A DNA stretch of 64,000 bases, from assembly GCF_022808695.1 (NCBI RefSeq), contig NZ_JAKZKW010000006.1, forward strand, positions 62,001 to 126,000, given 5' to 3'. The stretch's first letter is position 1. Every line of letters starts with the position of its first letter. This document shows positions 1-58,020 of this stretch, piece after piece. The stretch comes from Fundidesulfovibrio soli. Its GTDB lineage: Bacteria; Desulfobacterota; Desulfovibrionia; Desulfovibrionales; Desulfovibrionaceae. The position numbers and the translations under genes are program-made. Under the pieces are notes generated by a model. That model made no database searches, was not told where the DNA came from, and saw only the letters and a program-made list of their open reading frames with translations.

Positions 1-2
1 AA

Positions 3-1241
3 GGGATGCGGGTGCTGGCCATTGCCAGGAAGATCATGCCCGCCGGGGTCCAGACGTTGCATCACGAGAACCTGTCGGAGGGCCTCGAATTCCTCGGCCT
101 GCAGGGCATGATCGACCCGCCAAGGCCCGAGGCGATACAGGCCGTGGCCTCCTTCAAGAAGGCTGGCGTCCAGGTGAAGATGATCACGGGAGACCACGCC
201 CTGACTGCGGCCGCGATCGGCGGCGTCTTCGGGTTGGGCGGCGATTCCTGCAGCAACCCCGCCACCTGCGACTATCTCACTGGGGCGCAGATGGCGAAGC
301 TGTCTGACGCGGAGCTCGAAGAGAAGGCCCGCTCCATCGGCATATTCGCCCGCGTGGACCCGGATCAGAAGCTCCGGCTTGTGACGGCGCTCCAGAAGAG
401 GGACGAGATCGTGGCCATGACAGGGGACGGGGTCAACGACGCTCCGGCGCTCCGCCAGGCCGACATCGGCGTGGCCATGGGGCGGGGCGGGACCGAGGCC
501 GCCAAGGAGGCCGCGGACATCGTCCTCACCGACGACAACTTCGCGACGATCGAGGCCGCTGTGGAGGAGGGCAGGGGCGTCTACGACAACCTCTTGAAGT
601 TCATCGTCTGGACCCTGCCCACGAACCTTGGCGAAGGGCTTGTCATCCTCGTGGCCGTGCTTCTGGGGGGAGCGTTGCCGATCCTGCCGGTGCAGATACT
701 GTGGATCAACATGACGACCGCCGTGTTTCTCGGCATGACGCTCGCCTTCGAGCCCAAGGAGCCGGGACTCATGGACAGGCCCCCGCGCAAGGCCGACCAT
801 CCGATCCTCGACCGCGAGCTTTTCCAAAGAATCGTCCTGGTGGGCGGCATCCTGCTGCTTGCCGCCTTCGGGCTGTTCAAATGGGAGCTGGCCGCCAGCG
901 GCAGCGAGGCTCAGGCCAGGACTGTGGCCGTGAACGTCTTCGTGATCGTCGAGACGTTTTACCTCTTCAACAGTCGCTCATTCAGGAGATCCCCTTTCGC
1001 CCTCGGCTTCTGGAGCAACCCCTGGGTTCTCGGGGGAACGGCGCTGATGATGGCGCTGCAGGCGTTGTTCACCTATGCTCCGGTCATGAACGTCATGTTC
1101 CATTCGGCGCCCGTCGGCCTTGCGAGTTGGGCCAAGGCCGGAGCCGTGGGGCTGATCGCCTATTTCGTGGTCGAAATCGACAAGGGCGTCCGGTTCAAGC
1201 GGCAACGGCAGGACGGCTTCCAGTCGGGCTTCAGAAGGTAG
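3..1241 (+). CDS. P-type cation-transporting ATPase, C-terminal part (5' end outside window)
   Basis: This is the C-terminal ~410 residues of a P-type ATPase that pumps a cation across the inner membrane. The reading frame is open to the window edge, so the start and the DKTGT phosphorylation site lie upstream. Visible are the hinge motif MTGDGVNDAPAL, the upstream KMITGDH segment typical of the P domain, and then about six hydrophobic segments with a polar ILWINMTTAVFLG helix, as in P2-type (Ca/Mg/Na-like) pumps. The heavy-metal type has a different C-terminal arrangement. The ion cannot be read from this fragment. The stop lies 14 nt before the next gene, so the two are probably co-transcribed. 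Confidence 0.9.
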   Translation, partial: GMRVLAIARKIMPAGVQTLHHENLSEGLEFLGLQGMIDPPRPEAIQAVASFKKAGVQVKMITGDHALTAAAIGGVFGLGGDSCSNPATCDYLTGAQMAKLSDAELEEKARSIGIFARVDPDQKLRLVTALQKRDEIVAMTGDGVNDAPALRQADIGVAMGRGGTEAAKEAADIVLTDDNFATIEAAVEEGRGVYDNLLKFIVWTLPTNLGEGLVILVAVLLGGALPILPVQILWINMTTAVFLGMTLAFEPKEPGLMDRPPRKADHPILDRELFQRIVLVGGILLLAAFGLFKWELAASGSEAQARTVAVNVFVIVETFYLFNSRSFRRSPFALGFWSNPWVLGGTALMMALQALFTYAPVMNVMFHSAPVGLASWAKAGAVGLIAYFVVEIDKGVRFKRQRQDGFQSGFRR

Positions 1242-52937: not shown

Positions 52938-53642
52938 ATGGCAAAAGACACATTCAACAATCCCTTCGAGCAGCTCAAGGGCGTGAAGGTCAAGAAGGCC
53001 AAGCCAGCGCCTCCGCCGCCGCCCAAGGCCAAGCCTTCGCCGCCTGAGGCCCCGCAGGACGAGGAGGACCTCTTCAGCCAGGCCATGAGCGGCGTGTCCC
53101 GCATGTCCGGGCAGGAGTCGGGCAGGCAGGTGGCGGCGATCAGGCCCGCAGCAGAGGTGCAGCCGCATGACCCCGAGGCCGAGGCCAGGGCCAAGCTGTA
53201 CGACCTGGTGGCCGGGAAAGTGGAGTTCGAGCTGGAATACACCGACGAGTACGTTCAGGGCTTCGTCAAGGGTATGGATCAGAAGATCTTCCGCCAGCTC
53301 AAGGCCGGGCAGCTGAGCCCCGAAGCCCACCTCGACCTGCACGGCCTCAATTCAGACCAGGCCTTCGAGTGCCTGCTGACCTTCATGCGGGAGAAGTATT
53401 TCCAGGGCAAACGCTGCCTGCTGCTGATTCCGGGCCGGGGCATCAACTCCCCCGGCGGCAATCCCGTGCTCAAGCAGGAGCTCAAGGGCTGGCTGACCCG
53501 CGACCCGCTCAAACGCGTGGTGCTGGCCTTCAGCACGGCCCAGCCGCGCCACGGCGGGGCCGGGGCGCTCTACGTGCTGCTCAGGCAGCGCCGCAAGAAC
53601 GAGGGGCGCATCAAGTGGGAGAATTTGTGGGGGGATGATTGA
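52938..53642 (+). CDS. Smr-domain protein
   Basis: A 234-residue protein. The N-terminal ~100 residues are Pro/Lys-rich and probably disordered. The C-terminal Smr domain (~140-225) has LDLHGLNSDQA (DLHG motif) and LLIPGRGINSPGG (GRG motif), which in the family mark a DNA or RNA endonuclease-like fold. Divergent from cbpA. A strong terminator follows the stop. Confidence 0.88.
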   Translation: MAKDTFNNPFEQLKGVKVKKAKPAPPPPPKAKPSPPEAPQDEEDLFSQAMSGVSRMSGQESGRQVAAIRPAAEVQPHDPEAEARAKLYDLVAGKVEFELEYTDEYVQGFVKGMDQKIFRQLKAGQLSPEAHLDLHGLNSDQAFECLLTFMREKYFQGKRCLLLIPGRGINSPGGNPVLKQELKGWLTRDPLKRVVLAFSTAQPRHGGAGALYVLLRQRRKNEGRIKWENLWGDD

Positions 53643-53886: not shown

Positions 53887-55686
53887 TTAGGCCACTTTCA
53901 CGCTACGGTCCAGGCTGGAGGGGCCGAACACCTCGTCCACGCGTTTGACCTTGCCCAGGGCCCGCTTGAGGATGTCCTTGTAGTCCCGCATGTCGGCTTG
54001 GCCATAGCGCTCCTTGAGGTTGGCAAGGGAGGCCATGTCCATGACCTCGTTGAACAAATAGGGCAGGTAGAGCGGATCCTGCTTGAGGAACTGCAGCACG
54101 TTGAGCAGCAGCTGCTTTATCTCGACCTGGTTGCGGCCCGGCTTCTTGAGCAGCTTGTCGAAGCGCTTGGTGGCGTGGCGCAAGGAGTCGTTCCAGGTGC
54201 CGTAGCGGGCCTGGTACACGGGGCGCACACGGGGCTGGTTCACGCGCCGCAGCGAGGTGAGGAAGCGCTCCTTCGCTCCCGGCTGGGAGGCCAGCAGGCC
54301 CTTCTGGTGGCATTCCTCCACGTCAACCACGCGGCTGCCCTCGATCTCGGCGCCGCCGCCGTAGATGTTGTAGACCGGCAGTTGGGCCTTGCGCAGGTCC
54401 TTCTCCAGGTCGCGCTTGGCCGAGAGGTAGCCCACGTTGGAGAAGATGGTCTCGCCGTGGAGGTTCATGAGCTTCACGTCGCCCCGGGCCGGGTCGAAAT
54501 TCTGCACGTTGCCGTGGGCGTGGTGGCCGGGGGCGTGGCTGCGCTCGGCGGGCCAGGCGAAGTCCTGCCCGGCCAGCAGGATGCGGCTCACGCCGCACCA
54601 GGTGAGGAAGCGCGCCAGGGTGACGCCCACGTTGCCGCCCGCGTCAAGCACCAGCTCGTGCTCGCTGAACACGTAGGTGGCCATGCCGCCCATGGTCCAC
54701 AGGGGGATCTTGGGGCCGGGGTAACGGGCCACGACCTCGGGGTCGAGCTTGGTGGAGTAGATCAGGGGCAGGTCGTTCAGCCAGTTGATGTCCTTGATGC
54801 CGTCGTAGAGGCGCATCATCTCGTGGCGGAAGTCGATGGCCATGCAGAAGTCCGGCTTGAGGCCGATGCGCTCCAGCGCGGGAAGGGTCTGCAGGGCCGA
54901 GGCGTAGAGGGCGTGGCCGGGGCGCTCGACCAGCTGCGGGCCGGTCTGCGCCAGCGACGGACCCGCGCCCAGGATCACCGCCGTGACCCCCGAGGCGCAG
55001 CCCTGCATGGGCAGCAGGCTGCCGTTGTTCATGGCGTCGTGGAAGTTCCGCAGCTCGTTGCCCACCATGACCTCCTGCTTCAGGCGCAGGGTGGCCATCT
55101 CCACCGAGAAGTTCTCCAGCTTGCCGCGCAGGATGCCGCTCCAGTGGGCGTACTCCGGGCCGATCTGCTGGGAGGGCATGTCGTTGCGCAGGTGGATGTT
55201 GCCGTAGAGCAGGTTCAGGTCCAGGCGGTGCAGGGCCTTCTCGATGATGTCGTGGTCCGGCGCCAGGAAGCGCAGCCGCCCGGCCTTGAGGAAGGGGCGG
55301 TAGTCCGTCTCGCCCAGGCAGGCCAGGAGCATGTCGGGCCGGGGCTCCACCACCAGCACCCGGTGCGTGGAGGGCGTGCCGGTGAGCACGTGGTTCAGGC
55401 CGTAGCCCAGGTTGCAGCCCAGGAGCACCGTGGCGTCCTTCTCCGGCGTGTTCTTGGGCCGCCACTCCTGGTAGAGCACCGGAAGGGGCGGGCAGCGTTC
55501 GATGAGGCCGCCGCCGTCGTCCATGCGCCAATCCAGCAGGCCCATGTGGTTGACGAAAACGCGGGAGAGCGCGCCCTCGATGTCCGCGACGGACTGCGCC
55601 AGCCAGGTGGCCACGGGTTCCTTGAGCTCCGCCAGAGTCTCAAGGTTGCCGGTGAGGAATTGGTGCATGTTCATGGTGCCGGACAT
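53887..55686 (-). CDS. DUF115 motility accessory / glycosyltransferase-like protein
   Basis: A 599-residue protein of the MptE-like DUF115 family (motility-associated factor, Maf type). The middle part has TAVILGAGPSLAQTGPQL (a phosphate-binding-like loop), FCMAIDFRHEMM, and GGNVGVTLARFLTWCGVSRILLAGQDFAW, all family marks. Maf proteins transfer nonulosonic sugars to flagellin. No flagellin gene is in the window. ATG at 55686 has AAGGA upstream. The stop codon TAA is formed at the border of the palindromic element. Confidence 0.85.
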   Translation of the reverse strand: MSGTMNMHQFLTGNLETLAELKEPVATWLAQSVADIEGALSRVFVNHMGLLDWRMDDGGGLIERCPPLPVLYQEWRPKNTPEKDATVLLGCNLGYGLNHVLTGTPSTHRVLVVEPRPDMLLACLGETDYRPFLKAGRLRFLAPDHDIIEKALHRLDLNLLYGNIHLRNDMPSQQIGPEYAHWSGILRGKLENFSVEMATLRLKQEVMVGNELRNFHDAMNNGSLLPMQGCASGVTAVILGAGPSLAQTGPQLVERPGHALYASALQTLPALERIGLKPDFCMAIDFRHEMMRLYDGIKDINWLNDLPLIYSTKLDPEVVARYPGPKIPLWTMGGMATYVFSEHELVLDAGGNVGVTLARFLTWCGVSRILLAGQDFAWPAERSHAPGHHAHGNVQNFDPARGDVKLMNLHGETIFSNVGYLSAKRDLEKDLRKAQLPVYNIYGGGAEIEGSRVVDVEECHQKGLLASQPGAKERFLTSLRRVNQPRVRPVYQARYGTWNDSLRHATKRFDKLLKKPGRNQVEIKQLLLNVLQFLKQDPLYLPYLFNEVMDMASLANLKERYGQADMRDYKDILKRALGKVKRVDEVFGPSSLDRSVKVA

Positions 55687-55734: not shown

Positions 55735-58020
55735 ATGGCACACGCAGACATCCTCACTCTCGCGGGCGACACCCCGCTGGTGACCATCCGGCGCCTCAAC
55801 CCCAATCCGGACGTCACCCTGCTGGTCAAGCTGGAGGCCAAGAACCCCGGCGGCTCCATCAAGGACCGCGTGGCCCTGGCCATGATCGAGGCGGCCCAGG
55901 CCTCCGGGGAGCTCACCCCGGACAAGACCGTCATCGAGGCCACCTCGGGCAACACCGGCATCGGCCTGGCCATGGTCTGCGCCGTGAAGGGGCTCAAGCT
56001 CACGCTGGTCATGCCGTCCTCCGCCTCGGAGGAGCGCAAGCGCATCATGCGCGCCTACGGGGCCGAGCTGCTGCTCACGCCGGGTCACCTGGGCACGGAC
56101 GGGGCCATCGAGGAGGCCTACCGCCTGGCCCGCGAATATCCCGAACGCTACGTGCTCATGGACCAGTTCAACAATCCCGCCAGCATAGAGGCCCATTACC
56201 GGGGCACCGGCCAGGAAATCTGGGACCAGACCGCGGGCGCGGTCACCCATGTGGTGGCCACCCTGGGCACTTCGGGTACGGCCATGGGCATCGCCAAGAA
56301 ACTCAAGGAATTGAACCCGGCCGTCAAAGTGGTGGCGGTGGAGCCCAGGCCCGGGCACAGGATACAGGGGCTCAAGAACATGCAGGAGTCCTACCCGCCG
56401 GGCATCTACGACAAGCGGGCGCTGGAGGTTGTGCGCGTGGAGGACGAGGAAGCCTTCGAAATGGCCAGGCAACTGGCGCGCCAGGAGGGCATACTGGCGG
56501 GAATGAGCGGCGGGGCGGCCATGGCCGCTGCGGCCAGCCTCTGCCGCGAGCTGGTCTCCGGGCTGGTGGTGGCCATCCTGCCCGATGGCGGCGAACGCTA
56601 CCTCTCCACCGAGCTGTACGCCGCCCAGGAACAGCGCGGCGTGCGCCTGCGCACCGTGGAGACCGGCAAGCAGGTGCACTTGCCCCCCGGGGCCGCCGGA
56701 TTCTACACCCCCGGCCCCAGCCTGGACGCCACGGCCGACGCCGAATGCTGGCGGCGCATCGTGCTCTTGGACGTGCTGGCGCGCCACGGGCGCGGGCGGG
56801 ACGCGGCCTCCTCCGTGGTGGTGGGCCTGGCCGACATGGACGACAGGGCCTTGGCCGCGTCGCGCGCTGCCGGGCTCTCCCGGGAGGATTTCGCCCGCCA
56901 GGCCCTGGACGGCCTCAACAGGCTGGCGGGGCAGCTGCGCGTGGAGGCCTCCTTCACCATGGCCTCGGCCTCGCTTGAGCGCATGCTGGACATGACCAGG
57001 GCGCTCATGCGCAAGGGCTACAGCTACGAGCGGCTGCGCTCGGTCTATTTCGACGTGGCGCGCGACAAGGGCTACGGGGCGCTCTCCCACGCCAACCTGG
57101 GCAGGCTGGCTCTGGGCAAGACCGTGGACCTGGCGGCCTACCTCAAGGACCACCCCCAGGACTTCACCCTGCTCAAGCGAGTCAGCCTGCAGGACCTCAA
57201 GCTCGGCCAGGTGGTGCAGACCGAGTGGGGGGCCGTGCGCCCAAGCTGGTTTTTGCAGATGGCGGCCTGCCCGCTGGAGCGGCTGCCCAAGCTCACGGCG
57301 GTGCTGGCGGGCGAGGGGCAGTGTTTCCCAATGCTTGAGAACCTGCGCGCCATCTGGAACCTGACCGGCGGAGTGCGCCCGGCGGCCTGGCTCACCAGCG
57401 GCGTGGTCAAGGGCTCAGGGGACACCTGCGACCTGGCCGACGTGGCCCGGAGCATGGGCGGCTTCCAGGCCGCGCGGCTTTGGCTGCTGTCGCTGCATTA
57501 CCGCAGGCCGCTGGACGTGTCCGAGAAGACCCTTTCCATGTGGGCCAGGAACTGGCGCAAGCTCCAGGACACGGCCGTGAACCTCTCGCACTGCGCCGTG
57601 AACGATTCCGTGGCCTCGGCCGACGCGGCCCAGGCCGTTGAGAACCTGCGCGCCGAGCTGGAGCAGGCCATGGACGACGACCTCGGGCTGCACCGCTTCT
57701 GGCCGCAGCTTTTCGCCTATTGCCGCCGGGCCAACGCGGCCGCCGGTTCGCGCGGCCCCACCCCCGGGGACGCCGCCATCTACCTGGAGGGCCTCAAGGC
57801 CGTGAACGCGGTTCTGGGAGTGATGGACGAATCCCGCCTGCCCCTGGCCAGGCAGGCTTGGCCGGGCCTGGCCCAGAGCATGGTGCAGAAGCGGGAGATG
57901 GCCCGGGCCGCCAAGGAGTTCGAGCTGGCCGACACCCTGCGGGAGCAGTTGGGGCTCATGGGCCTCAGGCTGGAGGACACCTCCGCCGGGCCGCGGCTCT
58001 TCACCGTCAGCCCGGAGTAG
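55735..58020 (+). CDS. Cysteine-synthase-like PLP enzyme fused to a degenerate cysteinyl-tRNA synthetase
   Basis: A 761-residue fusion. Residues 1-300 are a cysteine synthase/CysM-type beta-replacement enzyme: PLP Lys43 in NPGGSIKDRVA, SGNTGIGLAM (~71), LGTSGTAMGIAKKL and SGGAAMAA. Residues ~320-760 follow cysteinyl-tRNA synthetase: the entry YTPGPSLDATADAECWRRIV, GLADMDDRALAAS (for TDIDDK), RSVYFDVARDKGYGALS, then an anticodon-side helical part. The HIGH motif, the zinc Cys/His ligands and KMSKS are not conserved, so aminoacylation is not expected. It probably makes cysteine, with the second half as a sensor, dimeriser or tRNA-binding part (inference). Confidence 0.88.
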   Translation: MAHADILTLAGDTPLVTIRRLNPNPDVTLLVKLEAKNPGGSIKDRVALAMIEAAQASGELTPDKTVIEATSGNTGIGLAMVCAVKGLKLTLVMPSSASEERKRIMRAYGAELLLTPGHLGTDGAIEEAYRLAREYPERYVLMDQFNNPASIEAHYRGTGQEIWDQTAGAVTHVVATLGTSGTAMGIAKKLKELNPAVKVVAVEPRPGHRIQGLKNMQESYPPGIYDKRALEVVRVEDEEAFEMARQLARQEGILAGMSGGAAMAAAASLCRELVSGLVVAILPDGGERYLSTELYAAQEQRGVRLRTVETGKQVHLPPGAAGFYTPGPSLDATADAECWRRIVLLDVLARHGRGRDAASSVVVGLADMDDRALAASRAAGLSREDFARQALDGLNRLAGQLRVEASFTMASASLERMLDMTRALMRKGYSYERLRSVYFDVARDKGYGALSHANLGRLALGKTVDLAAYLKDHPQDFTLLKRVSLQDLKLGQVVQTEWGAVRPSWFLQMAACPLERLPKLTAVLAGEGQCFPMLENLRAIWNLTGGVRPAAWLTSGVVKGSGDTCDLADVARSMGGFQAARLWLLSLHYRRPLDVSEKTLSMWARNWRKLQDTAVNLSHCAVNDSVASADAAQAVENLRAELEQAMDDDLGLHRFWPQLFAYCRRANAAAGSRGPTPGDAAIYLEGLKAVNAVLGVMDESRLPLARQAWPGLAQSMVQKREMARAAKEFELADTLREQLGLMGLRLEDTSAGPRLFTVSPE

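Follow-up and report, generated by a model that had tools for sequence, protein, structure and literature searches.

Why would an enzyme that makes cysteine carry a cysteinyl-tRNA synthetase (CysRS)-like half in the same polypeptide, and what could that half still do? The question is raised by a gene of Fundidesulfovibrio soli located in the 64,000-nucleotide stretch of DNA analysed here (the window). A preliminary description had proposed that a cysteine synthase is fused to a degenerate CysRS, and that making the amino acid and sensing it, or its tRNA, in one chain would constitute a feedback device. The reading frame between positions 55735 and 58020 of the forward strand is uninterrupted (Table 1).

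Table 1. Features of the fused gene and its neighbour (positions in the window; residues of the fused protein).
Feature	Position	Strand	Basis or remark
Whole gene, cysteine synthase-CysRS-like fusion, 761 aa	55735..58020	+	ORF, ATG to TAG
CysK/CysM domain, PLP fold type II, residues 8-295	55756..56619	+	TIGR01136 best stretch
K43 of NPGGSIKDR	55861..55863	+	kept in 114/114 fused proteins
K214 in loop GLKNM	56374..56376	+	kept in 114/114 fused proteins
CysRS-like half, residues 302-758	56638..58008	+	alignment to 1u0b_B 1..461
Place of lost HIGH, residues 335-338, DAEC	56737..56748	+	alignment to CysRS
Fusion-specific conserved stretch, residues 461-491, CP1-like region	57115..57207	+	alignments
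Anticodon-binding-domain-like C-terminus, about residues 700-758	57832..58008	+	alignments
Divergent neighbour, MptE-like (PF01973, 94.5 bits)	53890..55686	-	outside the system

The N-terminal half scores above the cut-off of the cysKM model TIGR01136 (358.3 bits vs 344.15) and reaches 254.4 bits with Pfam PALP, while the fusion protein misses the cut-off of TIGR01138, the equivalog model of cysteine synthase B, CysM (358.7 bits vs 394.2). Similarly, the C-terminal half exceeds the cut-off of Pfam tRNA-synt_1e (74.7 bits vs 27) but misses those of TIGR00435 (cysS; 121.2 bits vs 340) and TIGR03447 (MshC; 30.1 bits vs 485.1). No NCBIfam model for the fusion itself was present among the best 25 of 50 matches of the whole protein, or among all 4 of the C-terminal half. 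A structure model of the 761-residue protein, built from a 66-row alignment, has a mean pLDDT of 91.3, falling below 50 at residues 462-464; since its pTM is 0.67, the relative placement of the two halves is uncertain. The PLP domain matches CysM and CysK structures of the PDB with Z of about 40, and is 40-44% identical to CysM structures (about 40-43% for the E. coli and M. tuberculosis enzymes). The best solved match of the predicted C-terminal half is the tRNACys-bound E. coli CysRS (1u0b, Z 41.2), the entire chain B (1-461) being aligned with model residues 302-758 at an rmsd of 5.4 over 431 residues and 26% identity. Foldseek also recovered 1u0b, at rank 40, the other rows listed being synthases and their relatives. 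The fold markers LADMDD (TDIDDK-like), SVYFDV and YGALS pointed out in the preliminary description are present; in both the predicted model and the alignments, a CysRS fold inclusive of the anticodon-binding domain spans the C-terminal half.

To follow these features beyond the window, 114 fused proteins were extracted, 60 from the Desulfovibrionales and 54 from elsewhere in the phylum. In all 114, the synthase half retains K43, which we take as the PLP lysine, together with S71, N73 and T74 of SGNTG and G178, T179, G181 and T182 of GTxGT, as the preliminary description had noticed in the window protein. Furthermore, 11 of 32 fusion genomes of the order have no CysK/CysM-like protein (E<=1e-30) other than the fusion, although in one of the 11 (G055) only the first 403 residues of the fusion are seen. 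These 32, out of 43 fusion genomes, were picked by hand, as were the genomes for the CysRS, cysE, SerA and SepRS surveys below. Because the PLP lysine and GTxGT are kept throughout and because these genomes have no other candidate, the N-terminal half very probably synthesizes cysteine. At the same time the fusion is often redundant, as indicated by a hand tally of 59 genomes of the order (E<=1e-20): a second CysK accompanies the fusion in 31, 12 have the fusion only, 12 have CysK only and 4 have neither. The last four (G016, G023, G041 and G053) are possibly cysteine auxotrophs or incomplete assemblies. The source genome of the window belongs to those with a separate CysK (C3:2657).

Which substrate the synthase half might use was considered from its sequence and from the companion genes. 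In the alignment, K214 of the loop GLKNM takes the place of the Arg that CysM of M. tuberculosis, an O-phosphoserine sulfhydrylase, has in ALRNM; this Arg is presumably R220, which binds the phosphate. The short substrate loop is closer to ALRNM than to GIRRW of E. coli CysM, while an 84-residue stretch of locus L099 scores higher with E. coli CysM (66.9 bits) than with M. tuberculosis CysM (52.6 bits). With the model of serine acetyltransferase, cysE, 8 of the 11 fusion-only genomes (G015, G019, G025, G029, G036, G040, G055 and G057) gave no match at 1e-25 and the other three a weaker, shorter one (109-120 bits); 8/8 genomes of the order with both CysK and fusion gave 161-174 bits. Outside the order, 5/10 genomes had no cysE match. 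These calls are provisional, as no genome passes the curated cut-off. The lack of a cysE match in fusion-only genomes points to a substrate other than O-acetylserine, and the evidence as a whole leans only weakly towards O-phosphoserine in these genomes. Full-length SerA (673-697 bits) is found in 5/5 CysE-less genomes outside the order; within it, none of the 8 CysE-less genomes exceeds the cut-off of 454, four giving 294-316 bits, three 200-257 and one no match. An O-phosphoserine route in the order is counted against by the GapMind survey, in which, according to the sections consulted, neither of two D. vulgaris strains yielded a standard SerA, SerC or SerB (PMC7311316).

The joining of a biosynthetic PLP enzyme to a tRNACys-type binding module, and the same shortage of cysE matches, would also fit a synthesis of cysteine on the tRNA, in which the PLP half converts seryl- or phosphoseryl-tRNACys held by the C-terminal half. 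We regard this as very improbable, and give the same low rating to the PLP half acting at, or delivering straight to, the 3′ end of the tRNACys so held. SepRS is above cut-off in 0/30 genomes, the weak matches to its model (18-26 bits) being taken as PheRS; the synthase motifs look ordinary; and we know of no enzyme loading Ser or Sep onto tRNACys in fusion genomes. If such a route nevertheless existed, it would represent a phylum-wide, tRNA-coupled cysteine synthesis unrelated to SepRS/SepCysS.

The charging motifs of the C-terminal half have decayed. In the window protein, realignment confirms the loss of HIGH, replaced by DAEC, of KMSKS, where a gap is found, and of the zinc and cysteine ligands C28, C209, H234 and E238, which have become P, M, M and L, respectively. 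The separate CysRS whose presence the preliminary description had asked to confirm is encoded at C1:401232 (451 bits) with all motifs intact, CHIGHARS and KMSKS included. HxGH is intact in 0/114 fused proteins. The complete zinc quartet, HxGx and K[MIL]S are each kept in 0/60 proteins of the order, and in 25, 22 and 24 of the 54 from elsewhere, respectively, with all three together in 15/54. Only H234, which the window protein lacks, is widespread (57/60 in the order, 54/54 elsewhere). The term degenerate describes the order most fully, the zinc quartet being intact in those 25 relatives. When mapped onto a synthase-domain tree (66 rows, quick method), which is built without the zinc-quartet columns, the state of the quartet changes at least 7 times and its loss was therefore not a single event. 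The alternative that catalysis was lost only in the Desulfovibrionales was rejected on the same tree, since other clades shed the motifs separately. One fused gene (L111, genome G313) is broken by a frame change, and the remainder of its CysRS-like half follows downstream in a different frame that contains one TGA; this is either a sequencing error or decay.

The intact sites outside the order, where fused copies pass the cysS cut-off in 24/30 genomes, make it conceivable that some members remain enzymes acting on cysteine, either adenylating or ligating it as MshC does or charging slowly. This explanation is improbable, given that HxGH is absent everywhere and that the order has also lost HxGx, K[MIL]S and the complete zinc quartet, although H234 by itself mostly stays there. 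The scores have a practical consequence, as automatic annotation may name these proteins cysteine synthase or cysteine--tRNA ligase.

What has been retained is as informative as what has been lost. R423, D436, R439 and D451 (E. coli numbering), which correspond to R720, D733, R736 and D748 of the window protein by alignment, are intact in 112/112 fused proteins reaching this region; the two exceptions among the 114 are L011, which ends at a contig end, and the frame-broken L111. In the 66-row set, which was thinned to below 72% identity and from which L011, L087, L094 and L111 were removed by hand, these four are the only invariant columns of the last 80 residues, and all 66 rows of the synthase-domain tree have them. 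We take R423, R427, D436 and D451 to be anticodon contacts in 1u0b. The position of R427 is occupied by R in 54/60 proteins of the order and 49/54 elsewhere; that of W432, presumably another tRNA contact in 1u0b, carries F or Y in the proteins of the order, with F found also in the true CysRS of the source genome.

As a reference, 49 standalone CysRSs of the same phylum (51 candidates minus L149, which is fused, and L150, a fragment) share 100 near-invariant positions. The order's 60 fused proteins keep 15/63 of these in the two Rossmann halves, 13/18 in the 121-190 region, 2/12 in the 276-400 region and 6/7 in the anticodon domain; the corresponding values for the other 54 are 19/63, 13/18, 5/12 and 7/7. 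Retention is higher in the anticodon domain than in the Rossmann halves by a Fisher test which treats positions as independent and uses hand-set region borders (p=0.002 for the order, p=0.0005 for the other 54). The anticodon domain is not alone in being retained, as H234 and most of the 121-190 region are kept too. The latter may have a role in the fold, the tRNA acceptor end or the new fusion-specific stretch. This stretch, residues 461-491, has the consensus GKTVDL..Y.KD.P.DF.LLKR...LK.G, contains small insertions compared to CysRS and adjoins the low-confidence loop 462-464; it is possibly a new ligand-binding or inter-domain surface.

Two further explanations have to be weighed against this pattern. 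The C-terminal half could be a scaffold which binds no tRNA, its fold being kept for stability, dimer shape or protein contacts. The repeated loss of the catalytic sites and the retained 121-190 region would agree with this, as would the fusion-specific conserved P30, R43, T168, R186, K193 and an inserted Tyr, from which it follows that a new surface evolved; selection may preserve even the four conserved anticodon-domain residues for the sake of the fold or of a different ligand. Yet the constancy of these four residues in every protein that reaches them is not what a scaffold would lead one to expect, and the 411-position model of MshC, itself a CysRS paralogue, stops before the anticodon-like segment. 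We consider the scaffold unlikely. Alternatively, the C-terminal half could dock the synthase at tRNACys or the translation machinery and hand over the product with no allostery. This explanation draws on the same retained anticodon-domain residues, and the separate CysRS found in 29/30 fusion genomes elsewhere in the phylum (in one of them in pieces) could take the cysteine; it appears rather improbable, considering that free cysteine diffuses rapidly and that the sequences give no hint of a channel or of a CysRS partner.

The surveys establish the fusion as genuine, since the protein is matched in 158/297 sampled Desulfovibrionales genomes (E<=1e-85), the rows being nearly all full length with few fragments (e.g., G199 and G055), and in 156/395 sampled genomes of the phylum (E<=1e-100), belonging to 100/246 genera, again with few fragments. 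At the laxer threshold of 1e-80, 247/395 phylum genomes match; the additional matches, unverified individually, are read as synthase-only proteins. One genus of the same family (g42) contributes no genome to the matches of the order (E<=1e-85) or of the phylum (E<=1e-80), and many of its genomes are listed as having none. We judge the phylum to be Desulfobacterota from the record names among the best 80 contigs, which mostly belong to its groups (Desulfobulbaceae, Desulfobacteraceae, Thermodesulfobacteriales, Desulfofervidaceae and Syntrophobacterales), with the isolates Desulfogranum marinum, Desulfopila sp. IMCC35008, Desulfosediminicola flagellatus and Desulfonema magnum. Other contigs bear just the label Proteobacteria or Deltaproteobacteria (several of them) or, in two cases, both MAGs, Acidobacteria (L211) and Methanococcoides (L216). 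The suggestion that the fusion is clade-specific holds only loosely, as many families of the one phylum sampled carry it. Among these 80 loci, 76 have the fusion in one ORF, three (L168, L189 and L214) are cut by contig ends and L220 is interrupted; the latter was rejected as an unfused copy, undetermined bases (X) between the halves being read as an assembly gap. In a tree of the synthetase half (quick method), 44 fused rows lie on one side of a single branch (SH-aLRT 100) and 45 standalone rows, including E. coli, on the other, which fits one origin; both sets had been thinned (standalone from 49 to 44, fused from 66 to 44). One row, L102, was marked as having a long branch. Overall, the fusion is real, ancient and distributed across the phylum.

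The genomic surroundings do not reveal a conserved operon, no flanking gene being common to more than 37 of 114 loci within about 1.5-2 kb. The commonest cluster of flanking ORFs (37/114 loci, overlapping frames pooled) lies upstream on the opposite strand, and the 12 loci listed for it are from the window's family; this survey covered the 114 loci of the extracted proteins. A tRNACys gene is absent from the 64-kb window and from the 52 tRNA genes (Arg, Pro, Ser, Leu, Thr, Tyr, Gly, Ala, Met, Val and Asp) in the flanks, some of them cut by contig ends, of L006-L120 and L151-L230. In 29 of the 80 loci L151-L230, many of Desulfobulbaceae type, tRNA-Arg(TCT) is directly downstream of the fused gene. 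Between positions 53000 and 60500, known RNA elements gave 3 matches at E<=1, none above its gathering score (best, 23.2 bits vs 45, E 0.014).

Taken together, sequence and analogy indicate that the protein is probably a functional cysteine synthase whose attached module binds tRNACys without charging it and would sense the supply of tRNACys by a logic resembling that of HisZ. As a whole, a tRNACys-regulated cysteine synthase is the best explanation, held tentatively and at a little under an even chance. Its parts differ in strength: binding of tRNACys by the C-terminal half is likely, as judged from the retained residues, while regulation of the synthase half by tRNACys goes beyond the sequences and seems somewhat doubtful. 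The C-terminal half, a CysRS paralogue without cysteine activation or charging, would hold tRNACys mainly via its anticodon-binding domain. When cysteine is short, uncharged tRNACys accumulates. Binding of tRNACys, most usefully in its uncharged form, would signal to the synthase half and alter its activity, so that cysteine output would track the demand of translation. Such a sensor could reuse a path of the type documented, in the sections consulted, between the anticodon region and the active site of E. coli CysRS (PMC9976931). Of the two sensing options first proposed, cysteine is unlikely in the window protein, which has lost each of the four zinc/cysteine ligands, and tRNA finds support insofar as the anticodon-domain residues persist; where relatives outside the order keep a zinc site, the module may also read cysteine. 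The tRNACys-regulated reading predicts a specific binding of tRNACys through D733 and D748. If it is correct, a single polypeptide both makes an amino acid and directly gauges how much of the cognate tRNA is available, as a protein counterpart to the RNA sensors of tRNA charging; this would couple sulfur assimilation to translation in organisms living amid high sulfide. Within one phylum, the synthetase halves also range from partly intact to fully decayed, a natural gradation suited to asking what selection preserves of a synthetase that no longer charges. The retention of a putative tRNA-reading part next to decayed loading machinery suggests that tRNACys may tune the synthesis of its amino acid.

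The recruitment of a synthetase paralogue to amino-acid synthesis is of a known kind. The fused cysteine version is apparently undescribed, as judged from the consulted parts of the open literature, the search having extended neither to subscription papers nor to database annotations; it may be noted elsewhere. The CysM proteins of E. coli and M. tuberculosis share the synthase motifs and the PLP domain, but are single-domain enzymes without the CysRS half. SepRS/SepCysS likewise ties cysteine synthesis to tRNACys, according to the sources consulted in part, but with different enzymes. A non-canonical CysRS is found also in related bacteria, namely CysRS* of the selC* system of Desulfobacterales; this protein is described in the consulted sections as active and without the anticodon-binding domain (PMC9437257), and the CysRS half of the fusion is the reverse. 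MshC, in the partial sources consulted, is another class I CysRS paralogue working outside translation, but as a ligase of mycothiol synthesis, and its model of 411 positions ends before the anticodon-like part. The closest precedent is HisZ, in the relevant sections of PMC9437257 a non-charging paralogue of HisRS that serves as the regulatory subunit of the histidine-biosynthetic enzyme HisG. Like HisZ, the C-terminal half of the fusion lacks the charging motifs and is physically joined to a biosynthetic enzyme. HisZ is a separate subunit, described in the consulted text as mediating inhibition by histidine, whereas the fusion is a single chain and, unlike HisZ, involves a class I paralogue in which the cysteine site has been destroyed and the anticodon domain kept.
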